From a virus, in the IMG/VR virus record IMGVR_UViG_3300028548_005277, positions 1 to 20,258 of that record: a DNA stretch of 20,258 bases; one strand, written 5' to 3'. The notes below the pieces were generated by a model. It worked only from the letters and a program-made list of their open reading frames with translations. It ran no database searches and had not been told where the DNA came from. Shown one piece after another: positions 2,878-20,258 of the stretch (the stretch's first letter is position 1; each line of letters starts with the position of its first letter). Position numbers and translations under genes: made by a program.

Positions 2878-3825
2878 TCATGTAGGATCACCAAATGGAT
2901 TAGATTCTGCGAAGTCCAAGACTGCATCATCTAATTTATCAAACAATTCATTTTGTGCAGTTTTGTCATTCACATAATCACCAATATAATATTCTTCCTG
3001 TAATAAATAATCGTTAGTTCCTGTTTCAAGAATAATACTTTCACCGACAGAAGTACTATCATTTTCACCTATGATATTATCACTATCTGTTTCGTCTAAT
3101 AATAAACCTCTAGTTGTTGCAGTATCATGAATTCTGATAGATTCGTTTACTGCACTTGATTGTTCTAAAGTGAATTGATATATAAGAGCATTTGTTGAAA
3201 GCGCATCTTCTATATCATCAATCGCAGAAATGCCCGTATCCAACATTTCAGAACTATAATCAAATGTACGACATTGTAATTTATATGTAGGGTTATTATC
3301 TAATTGATTAAAAGATGCATCATGATCAACAAAATTAACAATAAACAATTTTTCCAAAATGGGGTGATAAATTAAGTCGCCTTCTAATGGTCTATCTGAA
3401 TCTGTTGCATCAGTTTCATTTAGAATGTAATATGTTTCACCTTGTAATGTAGATATTGATATTGTTCCAGATTCTAAAAGTATAGCACCACCTGTTGTAT
3501 CCGTACCACTTTCAATTGTAATTTGTTTTGTTAATTCTTGAAATCTATTTTTTGATACAACGAAGGTTATATCACTCAGATTTTGCAATCCAAATTTATT
3601 CATCAATTCAAGTTCGCCGGAATAACCACCTTCAGCATTCTCAACGTACATTTCAATTTTAGCAGAAGAGCTGAATTTTGAAAGTGTATCTTCTCCAAGA
3701 ACATTATCTTCTGCTACAATAGTTCTATCAATATAATGAACATCATGGCCATGAATTTGAATTGCTTCTGCAACCAAGTTGGCATATAGTGATTGTTCAG
3801 CTGTAATTATTTGACCTGTAGTCAT
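2878..3825 (-). CDS. Neck protein gp14-like, second copy (315 aa)
   Basis: This is a homologue of T4 gp14, a head-completion/neck protein that acts with gp13 at the portal to prepare the DNA-filled head for tail joining. Family features are the N-terminal helix with SLYANLVAEAI, the DRTIVAEDNVLGED segment, IEMYVEN, the FGLQNLSDITFVVS strand, the RPLEGDLIYHP motif and FVDHD...F. The C-terminus (EEYYIGDYVNDKTAQNELFDKLDD) is nearly identical to that of the upstream copy. It lacks the MAVNKHF N-terminal extension of the first copy and differs strongly between residues about 210 and 265. The start overlaps the upstream stop by one base (TAATG), with AGGGAG before it. A second gp14 is not part of the T4 gene set. 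Whether both copies enter virions is unknown. Confidence 0.85.
   Translation of the reverse strand: MTTGQIITAEQSLYANLVAEAIQIHGHDVHYIDRTIVAEDNVLGEDTLSKFSSSAKIEMYVENAEGGYSGELELMNKFGLQNLSDITFVVSKNRFQELTKQITIESGTDTTGGAILLESGTISISTLQGETYYILNETDATDSDRPLEGDLIYHPILEKLFIVNFVDHDASFNQLDNNPTYKLQCRTFDYSSEMLDTGISAIDDIEDALSTNALIYQFTLEQSSAVNESIRIHDTATTRGLLLDETDSDNIIGENDSTSVGESIILETGTNDYLLQEEYYIGDYVNDKTAQNELFDKLDDAVLDFAESNPFGDPT
2918..2997. repeat. 80-bp perfect direct repeat, copy 1 (3' end of second gp14)
   Basis: Base-by-base comparison shows identity with 3874-3953 over 80 bp at a 956-bp offset. It encodes the conserved C-terminal segment of both gp14 copies (EEYYIGDYVNDK ... LDDAVL). Confidence 0.9.
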
Positions 3826-4838
3826 TAGTTTAAACTCCCTACATCACCAAATGGATTAGATTCTGAAAAATCTAAGACTGCATCATCTAATTTATCAAAC
3901 AATTCATTTTGTGCAGTTTTGTCATTCACATAATCACCAATATAATATTCTTCAGTTATAATATATTGATTACTACCAGTTTCAAGTAGTATACTACCAC
4001 TAATTACATTCAAAGACTCTATGTCAGCTATTGTTGCATCTGCTGTGACATTAGTTGTATCTGATGTAAGAGATATATTATCTGATGTTATAACTGTTAC
4101 TGTAAATTCACTTTCAAGACGAATCTGGTATTCAGAACTTGAAGTCGAAAGCGCATCTTCAATTGCATCAATTTCACTAATACCTGTATCCAACACTTCA
4201 GAACTATAATCAAATGTACGACAACGCATTTTGTATACTGGATTGCTGTCTAATTGATGAAAAGGATCGTCGTGGTCAACAAAATTAATCTCAAACAATT
4301 TCTTTAAAGTTGGATGATAAATTACATCACCCTCTAATGGCCTATCCAAATCTGTTGCATCAGTTTCATTTGAAATATAAAATACTTCACTACTAGAAAT
4401 TGCAATTGTACCAGATTCTAATTGGATAGAACCAGACGATGTTAAGTCTGTTGCCGTTTCTATTTCTATTTGTTTTGTTTTTTCTTGAAACTTTTTCTTA
4501 CTTACAACGAAGGTTGCTTCACTAAGGTTCTGCAAACCAAATTTATTCATCAATTCAAGTTCGCCAGAATAACCACCAGAAGAATCTTCCATATACATTT
4601 CAATGGAAGCTTGCTTATTAAATTTGGATAGTGCATCTTCGCCAAAAACATTGTCTTCTGCAACTAATGTACGATCAAGATAAAATACAGAATGTCCTCT
4701 ATGATGAATAGCTTCTGCAACTAAATCAGCATATAAAGATTTCTCCACTTGCAAGTGCGAACGCCATTGCCAAGCACGAGGTTGGTCAGCTGTGGCAGCA
4801 GCAAGTCCAGGCGAATGAAAATGTTTATTAACCGCCAT
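3825..4838 (-). CDS. 14: Neck protein gp14-like, first copy (337 aa)
   Basis: The protein has the gp14 pattern of marine T4-like phages. It starts MAVNKHF, and then has SLYADLVAEAI, DRTLVAEDNVFGED, IEMYMED, FGLQNLSEATFVVS, RPLEGDVIYHP, FVDHDDPFHQL, CRTFDYSSE and the EEYYIGDYVND C-terminus. T4 gp14 is about 256 residues; the extra length here lies in the short SGxIxLExGT-type segments around 140 and in the variable region near 230-285. It follows gp13 by 3 nt, with AGGG overlapping the gp13 stop, the usual 13-14 order. The product should sit in the neck between portal and tail. Because it has the family N-terminus and lies next to gp13, it is the better candidate for the canonical gp14 of the pair. 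Confidence 0.9.
   Translation of the reverse strand: MAVNKHFHSPGLAAATADQPRAWQWRSHLQVEKSLYADLVAEAIHHRGHSVFYLDRTLVAEDNVFGEDALSKFNKQASIEMYMEDSSGGYSGELELMNKFGLQNLSEATFVVSKKKFQEKTKQIEIETATDLTSSGSIQLESGTIAISSSEVFYISNETDATDLDRPLEGDVIYHPTLKKLFEINFVDHDDPFHQLDSNPVYKMRCRTFDYSSEVLDTGISEIDAIEDALSTSSSEYQIRLESEFTVTVITSDNISLTSDTTNVTADATIADIESLNVISGSILLETGSNQYIITEEYYIGDYVNDKTAQNELFDKLDDAVLDFSESNPFGDVGSLN
3874..3953. repeat. 80-bp perfect direct repeat, copy 2 (3' end of first gp14)
   Basis: It is identical to 2918-2997. The flanking parts of the two genes are much more diverged, so this block looks recently homogenised or under strong constraint. Confidence 0.9.
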
Positions 4839-5683: not shown

Positions 5684-5691
5684 TATTTATA
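5684..5691 (-). promoter_or_regulatory. T4-type late promoter box (TATAAATA)
   Basis: The minus strand carries an exact TATAAATA, the T4 late-promoter element recognised by RNA polymerase with gp55/gp33 and the sliding clamp. It ends 20 nt before the gp13 ATG, leaving room for a start point and the AAAGGA ribosome site. It overlaps the TAA stop of the acetyltransferase gene. It is the only perfect copy I found just upstream of a gene in this window. Confidence 0.75.
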
Positions 5692-6166
5692 AGATTTGTT
5701 TTATTGCAATACAATTTGGACCATATTCTAAATCATTTTTCCATTTAGACCATTGTTTTAATCCTACATTTTCATATGCAGGCAATGCAGTTTTTCTAGG
5801 AACCGTCCATATCCAAGTTCCATTATTTTCCTTTGCATACTTTATAGTTTCGAGTAATATTAAAGAAGCATATCCCTTTCTACGACATTCTGGGTCTGTC
5901 CATAAACCTCTTGATCTAAAATATATAGAATCTTCCCAAACATTACTCATATAACAACTGTTGACTGATACAAGTTTATCATCTTCATATATTCCAAAGA
6001 AAACAGGAGATACATTCATATCATAGTTTGAACCAAAAGATCTACCCGGATATTTCCATGTCCATTTATTAAATGGTTTAACTCCAGATTTTTTATTTGG
6101 CCACAAATATTTTTCCCATATAAATTTAATTTCTTCCCATGTTATATTCTCTACAGAATTATGCAT
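5687..6166 (-). CDS. GNAT-family N-acetyltransferase (159 aa)
   Basis: The GNAT acetyl-CoA-binding motif A is visible at about residues 83-104: RGLWTDPECRRKGYASLIL, with the R-R-K-G-Y-A pyrophosphate loop. It is followed by the motif-B-like ALPAYENVGLK (127-137). Such enzymes move an acetyl group from acetyl-CoA to an amine (amino sugar, amino acid or protein N-terminus/Lys); the acceptor cannot be told from the sequence. The chosen start is the ATG at 6166, which overlaps the end of the upstream glycosyltransferase by 8 nt and has GGGAAG before it. An upstream ATG at 6190 lacks a ribosome site, and the frame from 6223 would lie deep inside the glycosyltransferase gene. It is the last gene of the enzyme cassette, so acetylation of a sugar or of the modified product is a reasonable guess. 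Confidence 0.85.
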   Translation of the reverse strand: MHNSVENITWEEIKFIWEKYLWPNKKSGVKPFNKWTWKYPGRSFGSNYDMNVSPVFFGIYEDDKLVSVNSCYMSNVWEDSIYFRSRGLWTDPECRRKGYASLILLETIKYAKENNGTWIWTVPRKTALPAYENVGLKQWSKWKNDLEYGPNCIAIKQIL

Positions 6167-6860
6167 GATTTTTATAATCTTCCCATTCATGTGGCTTGTT
6201 GTTTCTGTGTGTAAAATGAACAAATTTTATATCAGGATGAAATTCACCACCCAAATAAATATAATCATTTCCTGTTATTTTTCTATATTTATTTGTTATT
6301 TGAATCTGCCATTTAGTCATATCCTTACCATAATTAATATCTTCATTTACAACCCATCGTGTAAACCAACTTTCTGGTAACGTAATAAGTTCTAATCTTT
6401 CTTTAACAGAATCTTCAACAAAATATTGTTCTCCATTTACTGGACCGGCAGTGGTTTTATTGTCTATATAATATCTCTGCCAACCATGTATATTTGACAT
6501 AAATTTATCAAAGATATAACGACAATCTTTTGGATAGTATTTAAAAAATCCACCATTAATAACATAGTTATTTTTAATTGTATCTCTCCACCAACCTGGC
6601 ATTGCAATAAATTGGCCAGGATTTACAGGATACTCAAATATTTTTTCATAGTCATTCATCAACAAAATATCAATGTCTATCATACAAATTGGTTCGTCAA
6701 TATCCAGTTGCATTCCCCACATCTTGTTCCATTGTAAAGTTACTTTTTGGTTATAGGGTTCTCTTATCCATACAATTTCATACTTGGATAATTTATTTTC
6801 CAAATATTTTTCATATTCTGGACCATACTTATCACCTATTCTAACTGCAAATATTTTCAT
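6159..6860 (-). CDS. GT-A-type glycosyltransferase 2 (233 aa)
   Basis: The protein begins KIFAVRIGDKYG and has a D-I-D metal/nucleotide-sugar-binding motif in CMIDIDILL (residues 62-64). It then has a conserved YVINGGFFKYY segment (about 118-128) and an HFTHRNNKPHEW C-terminal motif resembling the HFxGxxKPW motif of GT8-like enzymes. It should transfer a sugar from a nucleotide sugar to an unknown acceptor in the cytoplasm; no signal peptide or membrane segment is seen. The start is set at the ATG at 6860, which overlaps the TGA of the upstream oxygenase (ATGA). The open frame extends back to 6920, but those 20 residues are unlike the family and lie inside the neighbour. Its first 13 residues resemble those of the other glycosyltransferase in the cassette (IxxxxWGDKYG-like), which suggests related enzymes. 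Confidence 0.83.
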   Translation of the reverse strand: MKIFAVRIGDKYGPEYEKYLENKLSKYEIVWIREPYNQKVTLQWNKMWGMQLDIDEPICMIDIDILLMNDYEKIFEYPVNPGQFIAMPGWWRDTIKNNYVINGGFFKYYPKDCRYIFDKFMSNIHGWQRYYIDNKTTAGPVNGEQYFVEDSVKERLELITLPESWFTRWVVNEDINYGKDMTKWQIQITNKYRKITGNDYIYLGGEFHPDIKFVHFTHRNNKPHEWEDYKNHA

Positions 6861-7687
6861 GGTGCATAAGGAAAAATCATCTTTGATTTTATCATGTCTA
6901 TAGGTTGAACACCAAACCACTTATTTTTTTTCCATTCCCCTCCTTTTTTTTCAAACCAAGTCATGAATCCAGCAACAATATGAAGTCTTGGTTTTGTTGC
7001 ATTACCTGTATCTCTAACTCTATGTTGTATTTTAGTGTTCCAAAAATATACTTTACCAACTTCCAAATGTTTTGTTAATGTCAAAGAATTGCCCCAATCA
7101 TCTGTACCATCAATTTCTAAAACATATGATGGTTCTGTAATTAAAGGAATATTAAATCTAATTGCAGACCACATAATTTCATCTAAATGCCAATTTTGTT
7201 CATATCCTGGATGTGCCCACATAACTCTTGACCTTGTGGGTTGTAAATCAAAACAATCTAGAAATTCTTTGTAATGTTTTTGAACAACAGGATGAACCGT
7301 ATTAAATCCATATGTATCATAATAAGTGTCTTTGTCAGTTTCCCAAGGAGGATTTGGATTATTGTTTCGCGAATAAGCCCAGTTCAATTCTGGATGACCA
7401 AGACTTGCATATGGACTTTGAAGATGTTCATCTCCATCTGGATTTATACAAATACTAAACCCTTTGTATTTTTCTGATTCTTTATTGTTTTTTTGCCATC
7501 CCTTTATGCCTCCAATCTCATCGGATATTTTTAGAGTCTGTTTATATAACCACTCAGCTGATGGCAAACCCAATTCTTCTAGAGTAAATTCAAAAAAGTT
7601 TTTTTCAAGTTTTGGTTCATATATACTGGATGCATTATATTTTTTATCCAACTCATTAGATACCGGAATTTTATTTTCTATTATCAT
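6857..7687 (-). CDS. Aspartyl/asparaginyl beta-hydroxylase-like 2OG-Fe(II) oxygenase 2 (276 aa)
   Basis: The double-stranded beta-helix oxygenase residues are in place: the H-x-D iron ligands in QNWHLDE (H167, D169), the distal histidine in KIQHRVRD (H222) and the 2-oxoglutarate-binding arginine in KPRLHIVAG (R234). The segments between, RFNIPLI and LEVGKVYFWNT, fit the same fold. Such enzymes hydroxylate Asp/Asn side chains or small molecules using O2 and 2-oxoglutarate. The N-terminal 130 residues are specific to this type and contain GFSICINPDGDEH and SLGHPELNWAYSR. The start is ATG at 7687, 6 nt after the upstream stop; the end overlaps the glycosyltransferase start. It shares only the fold and metal residues with the oxygenase at 9043-9732, so the two are unlikely to be recent duplicates. 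The substrate is unknown. Confidence 0.85.
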   Translation of the reverse strand: MIIENKIPVSNELDKKYNASSIYEPKLEKNFFEFTLEELGLPSAEWLYKQTLKISDEIGGIKGWQKNNKESEKYKGFSICINPDGDEHLQSPYASLGHPELNWAYSRNNNPNPPWETDKDTYYDTYGFNTVHPVVQKHYKEFLDCFDLQPTRSRVMWAHPGYEQNWHLDEIMWSAIRFNIPLITEPSYVLEIDGTDDWGNSLTLTKHLEVGKVYFWNTKIQHRVRDTGNATKPRLHIVAGFMTWFEKKGGEWKKNKWFGVQPIDMIKSKMIFPYAP

Positions 7688-7693
7688 TAGATG

Positions 7694-9043
7694 TTATCTC
7701 TTACTGAAATATTGTAGATGTTGTTTAGTTGGTCTAGTTCCCATGAACAGATAATATTCTGAATAGCTAAGTGTCTTGTGTAGTATATTAAAAGACCTAA
7801 CTAATGCATCTAAAGTATAAACTGAATGTGAAATATGATAACTAAAAATATTACTAGTATTAAATAAAACTTTTTTACCCTCAATTTTGTTTTTAAGTTT
7901 TTTATAATCAGGTTTTATTAAATCCATTATCCAATATTCTATATCATATGTGTCTCTCATTTTTTTCTGAAGAGTTCTAAGATACTCAAAGTCACCGTAT
8001 GTTTTTGCTCTGTTATGCAAAATATTAGCTTGCGAACTTTGAGATATATTTTTTGTAAAATTAAACGATTGATTTATATATCCAGAATATTTTTTTATTT
8101 CTTCCATAGACATATTCATTTCAACAATGTTCTCTTTAATTGTAACATTGTTTTGAGTATAATCATAAAATACAATCTCTCCATTAAAATTTAATTTTTC
8201 AATTAAAACTTCTGTCACATAACCAGCTGTTGGTGAAAAAATAATATCAAATTTTTCATCAGGTAAATTCTCAGAAATTGATCCTAAACTCATAGTGTTT
8301 TCAACATAGAATGTACTTTTTAATCTATCACAGGTTGTTTTAAAATAATTATCATCATCTAATTCATCATAATATCCTTTTTTTCTGTTCTTGAGAATTT
8401 TCCAATTTCTATTTTGAATTTTTGTTCTATTTTGTATATTATTATATGAGAATGATTTAACTCTTCTATCGTTATCATCAAAATTAAAAACAGTTGGTAT
8501 GTTCTCTGGTGTTATCCAATGTGGAGTATAATCATCGTGATAATTTTTATCTGATTTTTCATAATTTTTCCATTTCTCAAAAATAAATGGTTTTTTTAAT
8601 TCTCTCCACACATCAAGATTTATTTCTACATGCTGATGATGTAAATATGCTGGTTTATCAGGTTTTGCAATTATATGTCCTTTACACCATTTTGTTGTTT
8701 CCTTTGCAAAATCATAAAAACTTTCAATTGAAGTTTTAAATGCAGTCATAGAAAAAGTCATACCAACAGTTACAATCATAGCATGAGTGTATTCGTCACA
8801 ATCATTAAGAATATTAAATATTTCACTTGTATAACAAAGTATTTGATTGTGGCCGGTTCCTGCTCCAGTAAGGCCACCAGAAGTTTGCAAACATGTAGTT
8901 TGTGTTTGTTTCTCTACACCAAAATCCCATTCTACATTATCAGGATACATTATAATGAAAACAAGATTTTTTGTATTTTTTTTTATTTTTATATCGGAAG
9001 ATTCTTTTATCCAAAGACTTTTGAAATCTTCAAAGTTTTTCAT
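7694..9043 (-). CDS. Unrecognised two-part protein of the enzyme cassette (449 aa)
   Basis: I do not recognise a named family. Residues 26-150 look like an alpha/beta domain: a hydrophobic strand NLVFIIMYP, a glycine-rich SGGLTGAGTGHNQ loop (55-66), DCDEYTHAMIVTVGM, then GHIIAKP...YLHHQHVEINLDVW (122-146). That last segment is reminiscent of acceptor-side regions of some glycosyltransferases. Residues about 155-235 are charged and A+T-rich. From about 264 a Rossmann-like segment follows: FDIIFSPTAGYVTEVL, then NGEIVFYDYTQNNV, suggestive of a methyltransferase or nucleotide-sugar fold. Near the C-terminus are VLFNTSNIFSYHISHSV and YYLFMGTRPTKQHLQYF. No DXD motif and no transmembrane segment were seen. 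The start overlaps the preceding stop (TAATG). Its central place between two oxygenases suggests a role in the same modification pathway. Function is not assigned. Confidence 0.75.
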   Translation of the reverse strand: MKNFEDFKSLWIKESSDIKIKKNTKNLVFIIMYPDNVEWDFGVEKQTQTTCLQTSGGLTGAGTGHNQILCYTSEIFNILNDCDEYTHAMIVTVGMTFSMTAFKTSIESFYDFAKETTKWCKGHIIAKPDKPAYLHHQHVEINLDVWRELKKPFIFEKWKNYEKSDKNYHDDYTPHWITPENIPTVFNFDDNDRRVKSFSYNNIQNRTKIQNRNWKILKNRKKGYYDELDDDNYFKTTCDRLKSTFYVENTMSLGSISENLPDEKFDIIFSPTAGYVTEVLIEKLNFNGEIVFYDYTQNNVTIKENIVEMNMSMEEIKKYSGYINQSFNFTKNISQSSQANILHNRAKTYGDFEYLRTLQKKMRDTYDIEYWIMDLIKPDYKKLKNKIEGKKVLFNTSNIFSYHISHSVYTLDALVRSFNILHKTLSYSEYYLFMGTRPTKQHLQYFSKR

Positions 9044-9732
9044 TAATCCAATTCCCTTAATACGTCCTTACCAAACTGTTTGACCATAGACCGTTTCATC
9101 AATTCAATTCTTTCCTTATTTGATCCACCATGAACAATAAAATGAAAACGATTTTCAGATGAACTATTTAGTGCTTCATGAGTGACTCCATTATCAAACC
9201 AAAATCCAGTGCAGTTATCAAAGGGCAATTCTTCCTTTGTATCTACTCTTCTCAGATAACAATTTTCTGGTTGATAGATTGCTAAATTAATAGCAGCAGA
9301 TATATTTCTTTGTCTACCTTCGTTTATTCTTTTATCACTAGCATCATGATGAGCATTAATACTTCCACCGGGCTTTATTAACATGAACCGACAACGCCTG
9401 TAATGTTTATGTGGAAAATCTTCCAACCACCTCTTCATCTCTGGCGCAACTTCAGCAACTTCAGTCCATCCCCACTTCACTGTATCTTCGGTATAATCAT
9501 GACCAGTTGGATTCATAGTATTGCGCCAACCCAAAGACGTATCAATTTCATTCTCATGAACAAATCCATGTATTGAAGAAGAAAACCATTCACCACCATC
9601 TTGTAGTCTATGCTCTACAAAAAATCCTTCATCATATACTGTTTGGGCTTCTTTAATGATTACCTCTGGTATTTCTAAATCTATTTTTAGATACCAAATA
9701 TCATTTTTCCTACACCATTCTATTGGATTCAT
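9043..9732 (-). CDS. Aspartyl/asparaginyl beta-hydroxylase-like 2OG-Fe(II) oxygenase 1 (229 aa)
   Basis: Iron ligands appear as H-x-D in SINAHHDAS (H128, D130) and the distal histidine in NGVTHEALN (H185). The arginine in SSENRFHFIVHG (R195) is in the place that binds 2-oxoglutarate. Flanking features typical of the family are CRFMLIKPGG before the H-x-D and AAINLAIY and FWFDNG between the ligands. The expected reaction is hydroxylation of an Asp/Asn side chain or a small molecule with O2 and 2-oxoglutarate. Related oxygenases are common among marine T4-like phages, but their substrates are mostly unknown. The start ATG at 9732 overlaps the methyltransferase stop by four bases (ATGA), and its own stop shares a base with the next start. 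It is cytoplasmic, with no signal peptide. Confidence 0.87.
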   Translation of the reverse strand: MNPIEWCRKNDIWYLKIDLEIPEVIIKEAQTVYDEGFFVEHRLQDGGEWFSSSIHGFVHENEIDTSLGWRNTMNPTGHDYTEDTVKWGWTEVAEVAPEMKRWLEDFPHKHYRRCRFMLIKPGGSINAHHDASDKRINEGRQRNISAAINLAIYQPENCYLRRVDTKEELPFDNCTGFWFDNGVTHEALNSSSENRFHFIVHGGSNKERIELMKRSMVKQFGKDVLRELD

Positions 9733-10361
9733 CTTCCAATAACCATGTATCTTGTCATACCATTAGATAATTGTTTTTCGCCGCTATACATTACATCAAC
9801 CATATTGGCTTGATCAGTTAATTCATCAACACTATCCACACAATTAATATGATCATCATATTGTCTGTCATTGGATGATTGTAATATATATAGAGGATTT
9901 TTTAAAATCGATTCATTTATTTTTCTAAATTTCCACATTGGATACATATGCTCACATGAACAATTGATTATCGTATCTTCACCGTATTGTATTTTATGTA
10001 TTTTATCAAACATAACATTTCTAATTCGTATTTTATATTTTTCTTCTTCTTTATATCTTTTATTAAATTTATAACTTAGTTGTTTAACATTCTGATCAAT
10101 TTCAAAGTTTTCTACCCACTCTACAGATTCAAAATTATCATACAAAAGAGGAACGATATATTGTGCAAACCACCCAGCAAGTATTGCAACTCTTTTTGGT
10201 TTAATTTCTAACTTAATTAATTCTTGGATTATCCACAACTTACTTTCTAATTGAGATTGATTCATAGAATCCATTGCTCGTTTGAACAAATATGATTCTG
10301 AATTTGATAATGCGTTTTTCCAATCGTTAGCTAACTCAGGTGTATATTTTAAATATTCCAT
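9729..10361 (-). CDS. Class I SAM-dependent methyltransferase-like protein (210 aa)
   Basis: A Rossmann-type motif I is seen as RVAILAGWFAQYIVPLL (residues 57-73). It is followed by an acidic strand end ENFEIDQNVKQL (84-95) and a DTIINCSCEHM strand and loop (129-139). Near the end come LYILQSSNDRQYDDHINCVDS and VMYSGE...MTRYMVIGR. This combination (INxSCEHM, QSxN, HINCV, YSGE, IG at the end) is a pattern I know from phage proteins annotated as SAM methyltransferases in marine T4-like genomes. The glycine-rich loop is poorer in glycine than in canonical enzymes (AGWFA), so activity should be checked. The acceptor is unknown. The gene overlaps the upstream glycosyltransferase by 13 nt and the downstream oxygenase by 4 nt, indicating coupled translation. 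Confidence 0.75.
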   Translation of the reverse strand: MEYLKYTPELANDWKNALSNSESYLFKRAMDSMNQSQLESKLWIIQELIKLEIKPKRVAILAGWFAQYIVPLLYDNFESVEWVENFEIDQNVKQLSYKFNKRYKEEEKYKIRIRNVMFDKIHKIQYGEDTIINCSCEHMYPMWKFRKINESILKNPLYILQSSNDRQYDDHINCVDSVDELTDQANMVDVMYSGEKQLSNGMTRYMVIGR

Positions 10362-11056
10362 AAAGATTTTAACTCTTCAACATCATTAGTTTCTCCACTA
10401 TTATTAAACAGACAAACTTTGCATTCTTTACGTAATTTTTTAGATTCAATATCGTCAGGAAATACGTTTCCTTTATACCAAGAATAAATATCTCCAATAG
10501 GAAAAACATTAAAGAAAGATTTATCTCCATACATATCATAGAAGAAATGGTTTAGATAATTATCTATAGTTGGATATGTGAAAAATATAGTGTCTATATT
10601 TTTTTCAATATGATTATATACTTCTATTAATTGATTACTATTCCACCGAATGATGGATGAGTTTATTGGTGTAGATTTAAACCTTGCGAAGTTTTTTTTA
10701 CATACTTCAATATCATTCCACCACCCATGAACAATCCAAGGATTATCCATAGGTAATTCAAAGAAATATTTTAAGTCTTGGTGAATAATTACATCAAGGT
10801 CAAGGTATAAAAAGTTTTTACCTGTGATGCCGAGTTGGCTTTCATTAAACATATAAAATTTTCTATATGCCCAAAACTTTCCATTTTCATAGGAGTCCCA
10901 AGTTGTGGGAAGTTGCCGGTCATAATCTTCTGTCGGTTTATCTGTTAAACAATAAAAATTAAAAGGAACTGAACAGTTCTTTTCGCATTGTTGTTTCAGT
11001 TTCTCAACGTATTTTTTACCATACTTATCGCCCCAATTAACACATAATATATTCAT
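10349..11056 (-). CDS. GT-A-type glycosyltransferase 1 (235 aa)
   Basis: The N-terminus MNILCVNWGDKYG and the strand FNFYCLTDKP (residues 33-41) are followed by WAYRKFYMF and the metal-binding D-L-D of FLYLDLDVIIH (86-88). This is the usual order of a nucleotide-diphospho-sugar transferase of the GT8-like/GT-A group. Downstream, a PINSSIIRWN segment (about 130-139) corresponds to the conserved region after the DXD, and the C-terminus carries CKVCLFNNSGETND where relatives have a His-containing substrate loop. It should add a sugar to an unidentified acceptor in the cytoplasm. The start at 11056 has AGAGGA upstream in a 15-nt gap. It is the first gene of the enzyme cassette and resembles the glycosyltransferase at 6159-6860 in its opening residues. 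Confidence 0.82.
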   Translation of the reverse strand: MNILCVNWGDKYGKKYVEKLKQQCEKNCSVPFNFYCLTDKPTEDYDRQLPTTWDSYENGKFWAYRKFYMFNESQLGITGKNFLYLDLDVIIHQDLKYFFELPMDNPWIVHGWWNDIEVCKKNFARFKSTPINSSIIRWNSNQLIEVYNHIEKNIDTIFFTYPTIDNYLNHFFYDMYGDKSFFNVFPIGDIYSWYKGNVFPDDIESKKLRKECKVCLFNNSGETNDVEELKSLWNI

Positions 11057-11071
11057 AATATAAATCCTCTT

Positions 11072-11551
11072 TTAGAAAAATGATGCGTATGCTTTAATAG
11101 CCTCCAGTGGAGTTTCTGCTTTACGAATATCAGTTTTTGATGTTCTTTTTTTGCTTTTCTTCACAACTTCTTGTTCAAACATTTTTAATTTTAATTTAAA
11201 AAGAGTATCTTTATGATCATTATTTTCTGAATTAAATTCAAAAATAATATTCAAACTATCATTTTGATTTACGCCATGATCAGATTCAATATTATTTCTT
11301 TGAGCATAATCATTAAAAGCTTCCCTAAATTCCTCACGAAACTCTTCATGACGAACCTGAGTACGTTTATCTATATCCTCATAAGAAACTTCTTTTGCAA
11401 AATCTCTCCACTGCTCATCTGCTTCATCTACCAAAATGTAATGTTCTCTAACAAGACCATCATCTGGGTTCGTCCACAAAACTGCAACAGTATCCAGTTC
11501 TGGATTGCTGTAATAATAATCTGTAATTTTATCTGACCATGAATATGACAT
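11072..11551 (-). CDS. Conserved hypothetical phage protein (159 aa)
   Basis: The protein is acidic in the first 115 residues (SWSDKITDYYYSNPELDTVAVLW, then a long EEFREEFREAFNDYAQ helix at about 68-85). It ends with a basic patch VVKKSKKRTSKTD (133-145) and a TPLEAIKAYASFF C-terminal helix. Similar short proteins with a KxxIRKAxTPxExxKAY ending occur in T4-like marine phages, from memory, without assigned function. No catalytic motif, signal peptide or membrane segment is seen. It lies between the last tail/fibre gene and the enzyme cassette, with a GGGAG ribosome site and a 27-nt upstream gap. It could belong to either module; a structural accessory or chaperone role is only a guess. Confidence 0.75.
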   Translation of the reverse strand: MSYSWSDKITDYYYSNPELDTVAVLWTNPDDGLVREHYILVDEADEQWRDFAKEVSYEDIDKRTQVRHEEFREEFREAFNDYAQRNNIESDHGVNQNDSLNIIFEFNSENNDHKDTLFKLKLKMFEQEVVKKSKKRTSKTDIRKAETPLEAIKAYASFF

Positions 11552-14016: not shown

Positions 14017-16452
14017 TTATGTTGCCAATGCTATTGCCCTAAAATTTTTGATTCTAGGAGGTGATGCTGAATTAGTTGTTTGCATAACAATTTTAATTGA
14101 GAATGCAATAAACGGATCCAACTCTTGACCAAGACCATCATCAGTAACACCAGCAGTATATAGATGTTCACGAAAATCATTTATGCTTCTTGATGCACCT
14201 ACAGCTAAATCAGGACTGCCATCAGTGTTAAAATATCTCCAACCCAATTCTTTAAAATTAGAATCATCATCTTCTCTCAATATTTTGTAAAGAAGTTTAA
14301 TTTCTCCATTTGAATCTTTATTTCCATCAAAAAATACTTTCAGTGCAGTTGCTCTTTGTGCAAGATTAACTTGTTTTATTATATATACTGCTTCGTTATT
14401 ATCACCAAAAGATTCTGTAGAATCATTATATTCGCTTGTTGGATATACATCAGATGATGAATCAATGTTATTAACTCTGTTTCCAACAGCAATCATTGAC
14501 ATTCTTTCACTATCAATGAAAGGAGATATATTTGATGATTGTGATGTTAATGTTAAATCTAATGCTAAAGATTTTTCAGAAGACATTTCATTATCTTGGT
14601 TAATATCAGAAGCTACCAAATATGGAACATCATAATAAACATTTTCATTTAATGGTATATTGAGAGAATTTGAAACCGTAGTCTTTGTAAACGAAGTCTG
14701 TGCACCACTTGGACTTGTTGCTGTTGATGGTCTTTTCTTTGCAACAATAGTTGTGCCGGGAAGTTCAATCCCATTAATTTGAGATTTACCAAGTTCATAT
14801 AAAATATTTTCTGTGGCAGTTATAGAATTTCCACCATTTTGTGCATGAGTAGTTCCAGTGCTATCGATAACAGCACTACTTGTTACTGTGATAGTATAAC
14901 TATCAATTCCAATATTGCCGATTGATGTATGAGTTGTATTAATTTCTGTAAATGGAATTTTGTGTAACATATACAATTCAACCGTAGCACCTGCGGCATG
15001 AGATACAGCAGTAGTTGAGTTTGTACCTCTAGTTGCACCACTAATAGTATTTGTACTAATTGAAGTATAGGTTATGATTTCATCATCAATTTTTATATAA
15101 TATACGTTAGATGTATCTCTAGAGAATTTTCCTGAAGTATCATCAAAATTTGTACCAGAAGCCAAAACAATAGTAGTGTCATCCACATCTATTGCTGTCG
15201 ATAATGTTGTGCTTGCACCAGACTTTACACCATCAATAGTTACATTATTAGTTGTAACATACATTTGATGGTCGCGATGTCGCACTTGAATCACAGCACT
15301 ACCATCTAAGAAAATCAAAGGATGTTTTGACAAAGATTTAGTTGGGTTACTAGCATTCACCAAAGGAATTGTACCAGTCAATGGACTAAACTCTGCTCTA
15401 TACAAATTGAATTTCAAATCTTCAGTTAATGAAGGTGCCCAAGTTCTATTGTTATGTCCTTTAAACAAAACACCCATCGCTGGTTGTTTTGAAACTGTTC
15501 TTTCTGAAAACAAAACATTTGTTGCAGATGTAGAAGTGCCACCAGTTTGTGCTTGTGCTAATGTAGATTGGATTTCTGTTTCTCCCAACCTTGCAATCCA
15601 CACTTTGTATGTTGGAACATTAGCAATTACGACAATACAATATTCAAGGTTTGCTTGAAGATAAACTAGAGAATTAAATTTAAAATTTGTGGCTACTTGT
15701 GCAGTTACATCTATTGTAACATCAACAGGATCTTTAACCACTCTACTAAATGGCACAACTCGTGCTCCGGGAAATCCATTACTAACTTCTCTAATTTCTA
15801 CAGTAACAGGAAGAGTGTCATCTTTTGATTCAAAGAAAAGATCGCAACTTGTTAAAAATATTCCCCCAACTTTATCAATTAAGAAAGTTTGTGCTAATGG
15901 ATCGTCGCCGTCCGCATCACTGGGTGAGTCATCGAGGCCTTCACTGCTTAGAGAGCTGCTTTGTGAAACAGATGTTCTTCTTATTTCTGCGTTTCTAGTA
16001 GCAATAATAGTTTCTTGTTCAGTCCGAAGAACACCAACTGCTTGATAATTTGATTCTCCAGCAGTAATAGGATCAACAGAAGTTATATTTGTTGGGCTTG
16101 AAGTTAATCGAAAAGAAATTTCACCAGTTCTAAATTTAGGATTGCCTTTAATTTTAGGATCAGGTATACTAAAAACACCTTTGATTCTACCACTGGCACT
16201 AGTTACGAGAGCATCACCATTTATCAAACTTGCATCGTTTGCCGAAAATCCAGCTAAAGGTTTTGTATGTTCAGCAACCCCCGTTACATCAAAGAACGGA
16301 TAAACTTGTGTGTTAGGAAGAAAATCAAATCCTTCAAAATTGATATTACTTGCTCTAACAAAAGGAATCATTGCTGTTGACAATACTTTTGTTCCTATAG
16401 TTTCTGAATCAATTTTTTCAACGACACCTGTTATGATACGTGGACGTGCCAT
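14017..16452 (-). CDS. Structural (baseplate/tail) protein, C-terminal half of the DUF4815-type architecture (811 aa)
   Basis: The start at 16452 has AAAGGAG. The N-terminal stretch STAMIPFVRASNINFEGFDFLPNTQVYPFFD (residues 25-55) corresponds to the IPFxR...F...G..PNT.VY.FFD motif that in many marine phages lies inside one very long DUF4815 protein. A Ser/Asp-rich acidic linker (165-184) precedes DPLAQTFLID (184-193), the GIFLTSCDLFF strand and VTVEIREVSNGFPG, another hallmark of that family. Residues 411-496 form an inserted beta module with IKIDDEIITYTSIS, SGATRG and AVSHAAG, a unit often found in phage tail proteins. The C-terminal third (about 600-811) has VYPTSEYND and LKVFFDGNKDSNGEIKLLYKIL followed by a carbohydrate-module-like fold. 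It should be a baseplate or tail-periphery component, acting with the upstream protein. Exact T4 equivalence (gp10-like by gene order) is inferred. Confidence 0.8.
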   Translation of the reverse strand: MARPRIITGVVEKIDSETIGTKVLSTAMIPFVRASNINFEGFDFLPNTQVYPFFDVTGVAEHTKPLAGFSANDASLINGDALVTSASGRIKGVFSIPDPKIKGNPKFRTGEISFRLTSSPTNITSVDPITAGESNYQAVGVLRTEQETIIATRNAEIRRTSVSQSSSLSSEGLDDSPSDADGDDPLAQTFLIDKVGGIFLTSCDLFFESKDDTLPVTVEIREVSNGFPGARVVPFSRVVKDPVDVTIDVTAQVATNFKFNSLVYLQANLEYCIVVIANVPTYKVWIARLGETEIQSTLAQAQTGGTSTSATNVLFSERTVSKQPAMGVLFKGHNNRTWAPSLTEDLKFNLYRAEFSPLTGTIPLVNASNPTKSLSKHPLIFLDGSAVIQVRHRDHQMYVTTNNVTIDGVKSGASTTLSTAIDVDDTTIVLASGTNFDDTSGKFSRDTSNVYYIKIDDEIITYTSISTNTISGATRGTNSTTAVSHAAGATVELYMLHKIPFTEINTTHTSIGNIGIDSYTITVTSSAVIDSTGTTHAQNGGNSITATENILYELGKSQINGIELPGTTIVAKKRPSTATSPSGAQTSFTKTTVSNSLNIPLNENVYYDVPYLVASDINQDNEMSSEKSLALDLTLTSQSSNISPFIDSERMSMIAVGNRVNNIDSSSDVYPTSEYNDSTESFGDNNEAVYIIKQVNLAQRATALKVFFDGNKDSNGEIKLLYKILREDDDSNFKELGWRYFNTDGSPDLAVGASRSINDFREHLYTAGVTDDGLGQELDPFIAFSIKIVMQTTNSASPPRIKNFRAIALAT

Positions 16453-16483
16453 TTATATTCTCCTTTTATTAATTTTATACAAA

Positions 16484-19400
16484 CTATTCAAACTCGCCTT
16501 GGCCGGATCCTGCTGTGCCGGGCCCGAACGAGGCGCCGCCATCGTCCATGCCACCAGTCATACCATGGCTAGCGTTTTGGTCACCGTCCGAGATCACGTC
16601 ATGCTCATCACCTTCATCAATGAACATGGCAACACCACCACCAGAGAACGAGGTAATTCCTTCGTCTGCGTCAGTGCCGCCACTCCATTGGTCTTCCCAA
16701 GAATTCCAAATCGTTCCTATAGAATTTCTAACGCCTGCGGCAACTGTATTATAATTACCTTCCACATTAATAATCAGAGCAGGAGCAATTTCAGTTTCAA
16801 ACCAATCATCGCCAGAAGGTGTTAATTCAATTTGACCAGTCCAGTTTGAAAGCAAAACAGGCGTAACTCTTTCTGTTCTTGTAGCATATGGTTGTTGGTG
16901 TGATATAATTTCTGTATAAGGAAGTGTAAATACATCTCCTGTTTTTTGATAATTATTATTAGTTCTTGCAGAATCAGTTGCAGCAAATTCTTCTAACTTA
17001 ACATTTTTAAGTGCTGTAGAAGGTCTAAGCTCATTATTTCTTTGGTCAATAGATATGCTATAATCACGATGAGTAACATCACCAAGACGGTGGCCTTGAA
17101 AAGCATCAACCACAAAACCAGATTTAAATCTGTTAAGACCGTTTGAATCTTGAATTTCAAAACTTTCTGCATCACTTTCTAAAAGAGAAAGATGTGTATA
17201 ATATTCAAGATTACTAATACGATTTTTAAGTTTACCAATATCTTTCATAGTAAACCGCTGATTCTTTTCTCTGCGAATAGGCACACTGTTTGGAGTGTAT
17301 GTAAAAGCAGGAATAACCAAACTACCGAGTTTCATTGAATTTGCGGGTTGTTCTGGAAATTCAGGGATTTCATCAGACTGTCCTTCAATAACTTCTATCA
17401 CACCATCAGAACCCATTACAATGATTGCTTTTTTAGATAAATAATATTCTAAATCTGCTTGTGCTAAAGAATTCGGTTTAGGACAATGACTTGCAGATGA
17501 ACCAGCTCCATCATATTGACGATGGAAAAAATCAAAAGAAGAAGCAGTGATTTCATCCACAGTTGTATGGTCTGTTCCTGCACCAGCAATGTTTTCTACT
17601 GTAGGTCTAAAATCAAATCCATTAGATAAAGGAATGCCTCTATATCTAGAAACATCCACATAATCCATTCTACCTGCAATACCGCTATACGAATCCACTG
17701 TGAATACATCACCAGCACCATGCTCAAGATAATCATAAATTACAAGTAATCTTTTTGTTGGAGCTGGAGCACCGCGTTTTCTTTCTATTCTAGCAATGTC
17801 ATAAAAATTATCTCTTTGTCCATTATCAAAAAGAAAATTACCTGAAATTACTAGATCACCATCAGTGAAAGCACTTACTAATGCAGTTGCACCAGATGAT
17901 ACGCCTGTGATTGTATCAGAAGTTGTAAAAGATTTTGATAATTTTGTTGACACATAACTCATTGGTGTTGTGGTGTTAATAACTCTTCCAGTTGCACCAC
18001 TAGAGCTGCCTGTGATTTTTTCACCTCTTGTAAACGAACCATTCGGAGTTGACAAAGAAAGTGTTGGGGCAACAGCATCAGTCGAAGCAGCTGTTGCTTC
18101 ATAAACAGCAGATACAGCAAATACATCTGCACGACCCAATGATATTAATCTATCATCAGGTCTTGTTCCAAATGGATCTGTTGCACCAGTGTCTACTTTG
18201 AGTTGTTTCATCAACTTTGTTGTTTTGGTTTTTGGACTTACATCAGTTTTTAACAGAGTTGCCATAACCTTAAGCTTTACACTAGCGCCAAAACCAGTTA
18301 GGTTAGTAATTGTTACTGCGGCAGTTCCTCCACCAGAAAATCCAGTTGATGCACTAATAATATCACCCTGTTGAATTCCACTCAGAACAGAGATAGTGTA
18401 ATCTGATTCGCTATGTGCCAAGAATGTTTCACCACCACCACTAGCACCTAATGTTAATACACCGGCCGAGCTTGTGGTAACAACAAATTGTCTACGGAAA
18501 GTATATTGTGTATCAGATACACCATCATTTGATGCAGTCAATAAAGTTTTAACTGGAGTTTTTGGTAAAATATAAATGTTTGTATTTTTTTCTGGTTCTA
18601 AAAGTTTAGCAACACTTTTTATTGAACCAGTTCCAGCAGATGATCTGGGATGTAATGATAATCTTCCACCGTTTTCTAGCAGAACACTTTCATTTTCATT
18701 GCCGCCGCCAACTTGGACCAAAGAAGATGAAGAAGACGAAATTGAAACAAATTGAACATCAGCAGTAAAATCTTGTCCACTATCTGCACTAGTATCTTCT
18801 TGATGTACAGACCGAGTATTTTCAAAATTAAATGGTGTAATCTCAACAGCTGTGATATCATCATTACCAGAAGTTTCAATCAAATTTCCAGTTTCAGATG
18901 AATTTGACAATGCTAAAGTTTCACCAGACGAAAAAGTTCCTGTAACATTTGTAAGAAGCAAAGTAGTGCCAGATGTACCCGAACCAAACACAAAACCAGT
19001 TGCACCACTAGTACTACCCACTATTCGTTGACCGCCATTACTTGCAGCAGACAAAATAGTTGGACTGGGTGTACCACTTAATATAATTCGTGTAAACATA
19101 CGAATATCAAAAAGATACAATCTATATGTTGCAGCTTGTTCTCCGGCGGTTCCCGAATCATATTGGTATGTTCTTGCACGAGCAACACCCATATGTACTC
19201 CTACAGCTGTACCTCTTGTTGCTATATTTGTATCATACAAATCAAGTTGTTTATAAACAGTTGTTTCACCAGAAATACTTGAAACATCTGGTGTTCCATA
19301 TAGATTAGTAACTTTGATATAGTTGCCCAAATCAATTGGTGAAGCTGCTGAATTAAATGTTCTAAAATCTCTACTTTTGTTAACATCAATAATACTTGGT

Positions 19401-20258
19401 GCAATTTTATCTATTTCATATCCTTTGACATATGCTTTGCCAGGAGATACTTGAAGAGCCAATAAATCGTCAGATGCTTTATTACCACTTCTTGTTTTGA
19501 CACCAGAAGCATATACACCGTCAAAATCAGTTTCTCTTATACTAACATCAACAGATTCTTTCATTTCAAATGTAAAAGGTCTTACAGTATAATTGCCAGA
19601 TTCATCAAATGTTCTGCGAGCAAGAGTTTGTTCAAGAATCGAATATTCAGTTTCACGGGCATACTTTTGAACAATACCATCTTCTACTTTAATTAGTTCA
19701 ATGAAATCTTTATCATTTGTAGAATTTAATTCTTTAGATATCAAGGTAAGAGTTAATTGTAATCTATGTGCACCTTTGGCAGCAAAATTAGAAGTACCAG
19801 TTGCATTATCTAATAAACTTAAATCTGATTCTGGAGTAATAATAGTTTCATTAATCTGCAAACCTATTTTTGCATTTGCGTTATTATTATATTTTTCTAC
19901 AACAATAGTTTGATCTGCAACTTCAACAAAATGTCCTCGAATAAAATAAATTCCGTTTGATATTTTTACTAAAACAGATTTACCAGTAACAGGTGTGTTT
20001 ATTGAAGCATTTGCTGTGGTCGTTGTTCTTATAGTTTCTGTTGCCGCGGTTGTCAAAGAAGCAACATTTGCCGAATATGCTGTTGTGCCATGTTGCACTG
20101 AAATGTCTGCACTTAAATTTTCACCAATAACGAAACTGTCAAAACCTGCCGCATCCAATTTACTACGAGAAATCGTGGTTACATCTTCTGTAAAAGTTCC
20201 TGCCTCAGTTCCAGAAAGATTGCTAGATGTGTATACACCAAAAAGTGTAGCAGGGTCA
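16484..20258 (-). CDS. DUF4815-type baseplate/tail structural protein, 5' end outside window (at least 1257 aa)
   Basis: A TTG start at 20158 is possible, but the same frame is open to the right edge and encodes DPATLFGVYTSSNLSG...SRSKLD without a stop. The gene is therefore 5'-truncated by the window. Family landmarks are SPGKAYVKGYEI (near 19440) and LDNGQRDNFYDIARIERKRG with YDYLEHGAGD and FTVDSYSGI (17690-17840). Further on are DFRPTVEN (near 17600), MKDIGKLKNRISNLEYYTHLSLLE and NGLNRFKSGFVVD (17110-17255), TLPYTEIISHQQPYATRTERV and WTGQIELTP (16810-16935), and GTIWNSWEDQWSG (near 16690). Three SGAT modules (GSTSGATG, GSSSGATG, GVSSGATA) occur in the first two thirds. The C-terminal 50 residues are acidic and Gly/Met-rich, encoded by unusually G+C-rich DNA. 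The role is a large baseplate or tail structural protein, gp10-like by position. No enzyme motif was found. Confidence 0.85.
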   Translation of the reverse strand, partial: DPATLFGVYTSSNLSGTEAGTFTEDVTTISRSKLDAAGFDSFVIGENLSADISVQHGTTAYSANVASLTTAATETIRTTTTANASINTPVTGKSVLVKISNGIYFIRGHFVEVADQTIVVEKYNNNANAKIGLQINETIITPESDLSLLDNATGTSNFAAKGAHRLQLTLTLISKELNSTNDKDFIELIKVEDGIVQKYARETEYSILEQTLARRTFDESGNYTVRPFTFEMKESVDVSIRETDFDGVYASGVKTRSGNKASDDLLALQVSPGKAYVKGYEIDKIAPSIIDVNKSRDFRTFNSAASPIDLGNYIKVTNLYGTPDVSSISGETTVYKQLDLYDTNIATRGTAVGVHMGVARARTYQYDSGTAGEQAATYRLYLFDIRMFTRIILSGTPSPTILSAASNGGQRIVGSTSGATGFVFGSGTSGTTLLLTNVTGTFSSGETLALSNSSETGNLIETSGNDDITAVEITPFNFENTRSVHQEDTSADSGQDFTADVQFVSISSSSSSLVQVGGGNENESVLLENGGRLSLHPRSSAGTGSIKSVAKLLEPEKNTNIYILPKTPVKTLLTASNDGVSDTQYTFRRQFVVTTSSAGVLTLGASGGGETFLAHSESDYTISVLSGIQQGDIISASTGFSGGGTAAVTITNLTGFGASVKLKVMATLLKTDVSPKTKTTKLMKQLKVDTGATDPFGTRPDDRLISLGRADVFAVSAVYEATAASTDAVAPTLSLSTPNGSFTRGEKITGSSSGATGRVINTTTPMSYVSTKLSKSFTTSDTITGVSSGATALVSAFTDGDLVISGNFLFDNGQRDNFYDIARIERKRGAPAPTKRLLVIYDYLEHGAGDVFTVDSYSGIAGRMDYVDVSRYRGIPLSNGFDFRPTVENIAGAGTDHTTVDEITASSFDFFHRQYDGAGSSASHCPKPNSLAQADLEYYLSKKAIIVMGSDGVIEVIEGQSDEIPEFPEQPANSMKLGSLVIPAFTYTPNSVPIRREKNQRFTMKDIGKLKNRISNLEYYTHLSLLESDAESFEIQDSNGLNRFKSGFVVDAFQGHRLGDVTHRDYSISIDQRNNELRPSTALKNVKLEEFAATDSARTNNNYQKTGDVFTLPYTEIISHQQPYATRTERVTPVLLSNWTGQIELTPSGDDWFETEIAPALIINVEGNYNTVAAGVRNSIGTIWNSWEDQWSGGTDADEGITSFSGGGVAMFIDEGDEHDVISDGDQNASHGMTGGMDDGGASFGPGTAGSGQGEFE
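16494..16680. other. Local G+C-rich island at the 3' end of the DUF4815 gene
   Basis: Counting bases gives 43 of 60 G+C in 16501-16560, and 30/60 and 33/60 in the next two 60-base lines. Typical lines elsewhere are 20-40%. The stretch encodes the acidic, glycine-rich C-terminal tail and includes the palindromes CGGGCCCG and GGCGCC. It looks like an acquired or differently evolving linker segment. Confidence 0.8.

Follow-up and report, generated by a model that had tools for sequence, protein, structure and literature searches.

Gene content of the window

The analysed DNA (hereafter the window, that is, the whole 20.3-kb virus record) belongs to a T4-like marine phage. Among phage records, the gp14-like neck protein has its closest counterpart in Methylophilales phage Melnitz (39%), with further matches in marine cyanomyophages and in the Pelagibacter phage HTVC008M; gp13-like and tail genes lie around it. 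The position of the cassette under study (Table 1) fits the host recognition cluster of pelagimyophages, which the searched passages of PMC7029224 describe as a hypervariable island beside gp14 that carries glycosyltransferases as well as radical SAM cassettes; an aspartyl/asparaginyl beta-hydroxylase is listed there as core to all pelagimyophages studied. No radical SAM gene was recognised among the ORFs of the window. On either side of the cassette are long, repetitive ORFs of tail-fibre-like and baseplate-like character (1-2833 and 14017-20158, minus strand), whose products are possible acceptors of a modification.

The central gene of the cassette runs from 9043 to 7694, a direction that the initial annotation had not given. 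The other observations of that annotation on the locus were reproduced: the gene lies between two oxygenases (PF05118-type upstream, oxygenase-like downstream), it shares a TAATG overlap with the preceding ORF (9732..9043, minus strand), the last A of whose TAA stop is the A of the ATG, and it encodes all the motifs quoted earlier (a Gly-rich loop at residues 54-66, GHIIAKPDKPAYLHHQHVEINLDVW at 122-146, SPTAGYVTEVL at 270-280 and GEIVFYDY at 288-295), the Gly-rich loop being conserved only in the near subfamily and not superfamily-wide. The upstream oxygenase, an AspH-type hydroxylase, carries the HxD...H iron triad (H128-x-D130...H185), kept in 98-99% of 382 relatives. The downstream protein shows HLD and a distal H and has no match in Pfam; its family occurs mainly in near relatives of the central protein. 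Two further neighbours, the small glycosyltransferase-like and the methyltransferase-like gene, have no match in Pfam or NCBIfam (no direct match in the case of the former, which HMM iteration links to the upstream GT8-like family).

Table 1 Features of the window and of related loci (the third module belongs to Bdellovibrionota loci, with coordinates of each locus).
Feature	Position	Strand	Basis
gp14-like neck protein	3825-4838	minus	
Cassette containing the central gene	5687-11056	minus	genes overlap or nearly abut
GNAT acetyltransferase of the cassette	5687..6223	minus	PF00583 E 1.1e-7
Glycosyltransferase-like gene, 233-253 aa, frequent downstream neighbour	6159..6920	minus	HMM iteration
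Second 2OG-oxygenase-like protein, 276 aa	6857..7687	minus	oxygenase HMM 2e-17
Central protein, 449 aa, ATG start, HDDYTP family	7694..9043	minus	
Class I methyltransferase-like (Rossmann) domain, residues 241-449	7697..8323	minus	VIA, Foldseek
FYDY, residues 292-295, acid after second strand of the C half	8159..8170	minus	D294 129/130, Y295 120/130
SPTAG, residues 270-274, reduced motif I	8222..8236	minus	G274 129/130
GT-A-like domain, residues ~21-241	8321..8983	minus	model pLDDT mostly >90
R193..K196...Y200	8444..8467	minus	R193 129/130, K196 130/130, Y200 130/130
HDDYTP signature motif, residues 169-174	8522..8539	minus	130-sequence alignment
Expected GT-A DXD position, residues 92-96 (T-V-G-M-T)	8756..8770	minus	alignment, model
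Asp/Asn beta-hydroxylase-type 2OG oxygenase, 229 aa, overlaps start of central gene	9043..9732	minus	PF05118 E 7.9e-9
Methyltransferase-like protein, 210 aa, conserved neighbour	9729..10361	minus	assigned by reading sequence
GT8-like glycosyltransferase of the cassette	10349..11056	minus	phrog_1962 4.6e-6, PF01501 0.0097
Third module	L251:7500-8441		
Third module (residues 1-320)	L252:8256-11474		
Third module (residues 1-315)	L264:8770-11829		
Third module (residues 466-757)	L265:8259-10712		
Third module	L269:11340-12293		

A large family absent from the searched libraries

The central protein had been described as belonging to no recognised family, and every search agreed: there was no significant match in Pfam, PHROGs, NCBIfam or PADLOC (the last giving no defence-system match for the relatives either), none among PDB sequences with profiles of 7, 43 or 130 sequences, and no relative in 50,697 phage records by tblastn with four queries from different subfamilies. 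Three matches were discarded (PF21317, 0.066; phrog_17182, 0.0025; TIGR02117, 0.065), with scores that were low and under the curated cut-offs where these are set, and which the other members scanned did not share. No sequence relation to the cassette's other transferases emerged from profile-profile comparison, which leaves a recent duplication from them unsupported.

Iterated searches of IMG/VR gave 10, 13, 280, 315 and then at least 520 confirmed relatives. The ORF is intact in many viral contigs (23-100% identity) and its dN/dS of 0.12-0.34 indicates purifying selection; it is therefore a real gene and not a chance reading frame. We call the large family to which the protein belongs, and which none of the searched protein-family libraries contains, the HDDYTP family. 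One close homologue (L004:7998-9413, otherwise 84% identical) has an in-frame insertion of about 21 residues ahead of the conserved WC(K/R)GHI.

Predicted structure of the HDDYTP protein

The AlphaFold model built on an alignment of 130 sequences reached a pLDDT of 94.3 and a pTM of 0.91, and replaced a model from 7 sequences with a pLDDT of 33. The best full-length fold matches (TM about 0.7) were the BFVD entries A0A6J7WH01, A0A6J7WK42 and A0A6J5KYS8, all named 'Uncharacterized protein', from uncultured Caudovirales phages, known as predicted structures only and with no assigned function; they probably belong to the same family. The initial annotation had proposed two domains, an alpha/beta N-terminal one and a Rossmann-like C half, with a GT-A or SAM-methyltransferase match for either half as the test. 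At the level of the fold the confident model, Foldseek and VIA support this view, with a GT-A-like N half and a SAM-methyltransferase-like C half; the structure searches returned no match of the whole protein to one non-enzymatic fold. The fold matches of both halves are moderate (Z 9-10.6).

The N half adopts a GT-A fold in the predicted model. Its best Foldseek match is LARGE1 (E 6.4e-5), followed by LH3 (1.7e-4), with B3GalT5, POMGnT2 and GfsA also found; LARGE1 (7zvj, Z 9.0 over 162 residues, 3.7 A, model residues 21-241) is the one row for this half among the VIA matches listed. The position of the metal-binding DXD motif, taken from the loop that follows strand 87-92 in the model, reads T-V-G in the window, S/T-x-G in about 115 of the 130 members and D-A-D in 3; in this the family differs from LARGE1, to which sequence similarity is undetectable. 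The minority subfamily that still has the DXD-like D-A-D (L123 and related loci) is a useful test case for glycosyltransferase activity.

The conservation counts come from one MAFFT alignment of 130 members, down to about 20% identity. The catalytic base of inverting GT-A enzymes is an xED motif. In the 130-sequence alignment, H169-D170-D171 is highly conserved and belongs to the signature HDDYTP (H169, D170, T173 and P174 in 129/130, Y172 in 127/130, D171 in 116/130), within a wider N-x-HDDYTP that is almost invariant in the family. HDDYTP itself, R193/K196/Y200, H123, H135, Q137, G274, D294 and Y402 are all nearly invariant among members of about 20% identity. Since the DXD is lost while N-x-HDDYTP and R..K...Y are nearly invariant, any glycosyltransferase in this family would have to work without a metal or have been repurposed; R193/K196/Y200 is a candidate basic site that could stand in for the metal. 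GT14 and bacterial GT6 are GT-A enzymes without a DXD that do not need a metal (PMC7185993, PMC3961637), so the loss of this motif is compatible with activity.

The C half shows a Rossmann-like methyltransferase fold in the predicted model (VIA, among the matches listed: 6ulo Z 10.6, OvoA Z 9.8, PNMT Z 9.6; NNMT Z 10.0 over 164 residues, 3.5 A; Foldseek, NNMT E about 2-5e-4). It shares with NNMT and PNMT the D-Y after strand 2 and the acid after strand 3 (D294; D374 in 115/130, with Asn in 14), and differs from them in its fusion to a GT-A-like domain and in motif I, whose acidic position is mostly T/S/I/V and of which the last Gly alone is retained. Two ORFs that flank a full-length homologue (L263:6006-7247 and 9840-11120) have a different N part and only the methyltransferase-like C module recognised, which suggests that this module is separable. 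Given the S/T-x-G at the DXD position and the absent motif-I acid, the 'bifunctional transferase' suggested in the initial annotation is at best putative; its alternative, a component that selects the substrate of the cassette, is hypothetical.

Pairing and fusion with the PF05118-type hydroxylase

The strongest clue to function, missed in the initial annotation, is the association and fusion of the HDDYTP protein with the hydroxylase. A member of the PF05118-type oxygenase set is located immediately upstream (-1) in 52 of 78 loci non-redundant at 70% identity, compared with 96 of 689 genes at least five positions away (Fisher p about 1e-22, with shared ancestry uncorrected); these counts derive from a simple ORF caller and an iteratively grown oxygenase HMM, and take shared ancestry into account through the 70% threshold only. 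Pfam finds PF05118 itself in 26 of 35 sampled upstream neighbours, and the upstream gene overlaps the start of the HDDYTP gene in 74 of the 82 non-redundant loci having one on the same strand. In the far phage group, however, oxygenases are frequent throughout the neighbourhood (95 of 563 background genes), which counts against a specific pairing. Two loci (L159:7326-9185 and L212) encode 619-aa proteins in which an N extension of about 220 aa, weakly 2OG oxygenase-like (17-24 bits), is fused to the homologue.

Outside viruses, relatives occur in the phylum Bdellovibrionota, that of a Halobacteriovoraceae MAG (G001), where 13 of 368 genomes have them. All 11 Bdellovibrionota loci examined, of which two come from the same genome and one is a short contig, and which represent part of the genomes with matches, contain a PF05118-type domain together with the homologue. 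The two are fused in six, with the hydroxylase domain N-terminal in five (L250, L251, L252, L264, L268) and C-terminal in one (L242), Pfam confirming PF05118 itself in the fusions L242, L252 and L264; the hydroxylase adjoins the homologue in four (L265, L266, L267, L269) and lies a few kilobases off in L263. Fusion in both orders is hard to account for without a functional relation between the two proteins. The bacterial loci gave no match to the GT8-like families of the cassette. Bdellovibrionota also have a third module, about 310 aa long and lacking a Pfam match, which is fused to, or lies beside, the hydroxylase and the homologue (Table 1); searched for in the phage loci, it was found only in two contigs (L158 and L201), and so is no standard component in phages.

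Radical SAM neighbours

Other genes near the relatives often encode twitch-domain radical SAM enzymes (NF033640), and at least two such genes accompany the AspH-type hydroxylase in L242, L263, L266 and L269. Twitch radical SAM proteins in connection with phages were looked for in the literature, with no result. In three loci (L263:2295-3400, L266:13575-14620, L012:67-955) a radical-SAM-like core gene runs into a short second ORF of 112-118 aa (overlap of 4 bp in L263 and L266, 38 bp in L012, where the second part carries SPASM-like cysteines); these pairs are possibly split radical SAM enzymes or frameshifts.

Interpretation

On balance, we favour the view that the HDDYTP protein is a two-domain tailoring protein that works specifically with the AspH-type 2OG hydroxylase whose gene precedes its own. 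What it tailors, as an enzyme, is probably a protein, a peptide or a surface sugar. From the pairing and fusion of the two proteins we infer a common substrate, on which the order of events suggested is sequential: the hydroxylase would place a hydroxyl on the acceptor, and the HDDYTP protein would then bind the hydroxylated acceptor and elaborate it, through a glycosyl transfer that needs no metal (N half), through methylation (C half), or through both. The N half would combine the GT-A fold with a polar site (H123, H135, Q137, N-x-HDDYTP, R193/K196/Y200) in place of the metal site, and the C half would use an NNMT/PNMT-like fold retaining several SAM-site positions. Likely acceptors in these phages would be virion proteins, such as those of the tail fibres, a small peptide, or a polysaccharide of the host surface.

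One precedent for the partnership is LH3 (PLOD3), which unites GT-A-like domains with a 2OG hydroxylase and both hydroxylates and glycosylates collagen lysine (PMC6082870). Foldseek ranks LH3 near the top of the PDB fold matches, and a GT fold and a 2OG hydroxylase likewise occur here in one polypeptide (the six bacterial fusions) or as neighbours (the 52 upstream pairs). The HDDYTP protein differs from LH3 in its methyltransferase-like second domain and in the lost DXD, and its partner is a hydroxylase of the PF05118 type, mostly encoded by a separate gene; the PDB sequence searches with profiles of 7, 43 or 130 sequences gave no match to LH3. A second precedent is the proteusin maturation of Ca. 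Eremiobacterota, in which a ribosomal peptide is oxygenated with the help of EreI (AspH family), which this step needs, and whose pathway also has a radical SAM epimerase (EreD) and a methyltransferase (EreM) (PMC9259500); unlike the HDDYTP protein, EreM is an FkbM-family enzyme. The LH3 and EreI precedents favour a role in protein or peptide tailoring, with modification of a host polysaccharide as a serious alternative.

That alternative is a possible, though not the favoured, reading: the HDDYTP protein would belong to a set for modifying the host surface (O-chain) that prevents coinfection, and its link to the hydroxylase would reflect shared glycan chemistry and not protein modification. 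The searched passages of PMC7029224 propose that the GT8 enzymes of pelagimyophages modify the host O-chain, and the likeness to their host recognition cluster extends from the gp14-adjacent position in a T4-like marine phage and the GT8-like genes flanking the HDDYTP gene to the radical SAM cassettes of the relatives and the core AspH-type hydroxylase; some relatives also have sugar-nucleotide genes nearby. The HDDYTP family is, however, undescribed in those passages; its steadiest neighbours, the AspH-type hydroxylase and the twitch radical SAM enzymes, are of kinds that act on peptides in the characterised precedent, and the bacterial loci maintain the association without GT8-like matches.

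The loss of the DXD in nearly all members and the reduced motif I mean that either half could be non-catalytic. Were both dead, the protein would be a substrate-binding or scaffold subunit of the hydroxylase, comparable to the GT-fold accessory domain of LH3, which is thought to be non-catalytic (PMC6082870). Gene overlap and fusion would suit an obligate subunit, but H169, D170, R193, K196, Y200 and D294 remain near-invariant at about 20% identity, more as in an active site than on a binding surface, and we regard this explanation as rather improbable. Least likely is a RiPP-like maturation in which the hydroxylase, the twitch radical SAM enzymes and the HDDYTP protein modify a small ribosomal peptide, as the four loci with several radical SAM genes and the Ere pathway might suggest, since in the window no radical SAM gene is seen, no precursor peptide is apparent in the cassette (as at the other loci seen, and short of a systematic small-ORF search), and genes that overlap or stand a few bases apart leave scant space for one. 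The host-surface and peptide readings assume the same protein anatomy and part ways over what is modified, so that the confidence in the favoured explanation overlaps with that in its rivals.

The link of the HDDYTP family to the PF05118-type hydroxylase, and its fusion with it, are new here, and the fusions provide a concrete handle on the function of a family carried by more than 500 viral loci and yet without a match in the family libraries searched or a detected relative in 50,697 phage records. Tentatively, these genes may form a widespread undescribed system of aquatic phages and Bdellovibrionota, in which an AspH-type hydroxylase and an HDDYTP protein with a DXD-less GT-A site, frequently joined by twitch radical SAM enzymes and in bacteria by the module of about 310 aa, would install a new hydroxylation-dependent glycosyl and/or methyl decoration on protein or peptide targets. 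If virions or host surfaces are indeed decorated in a way linked to the hydroxylase, this would have a direct bearing on the control of host recognition by abundant marine phages.
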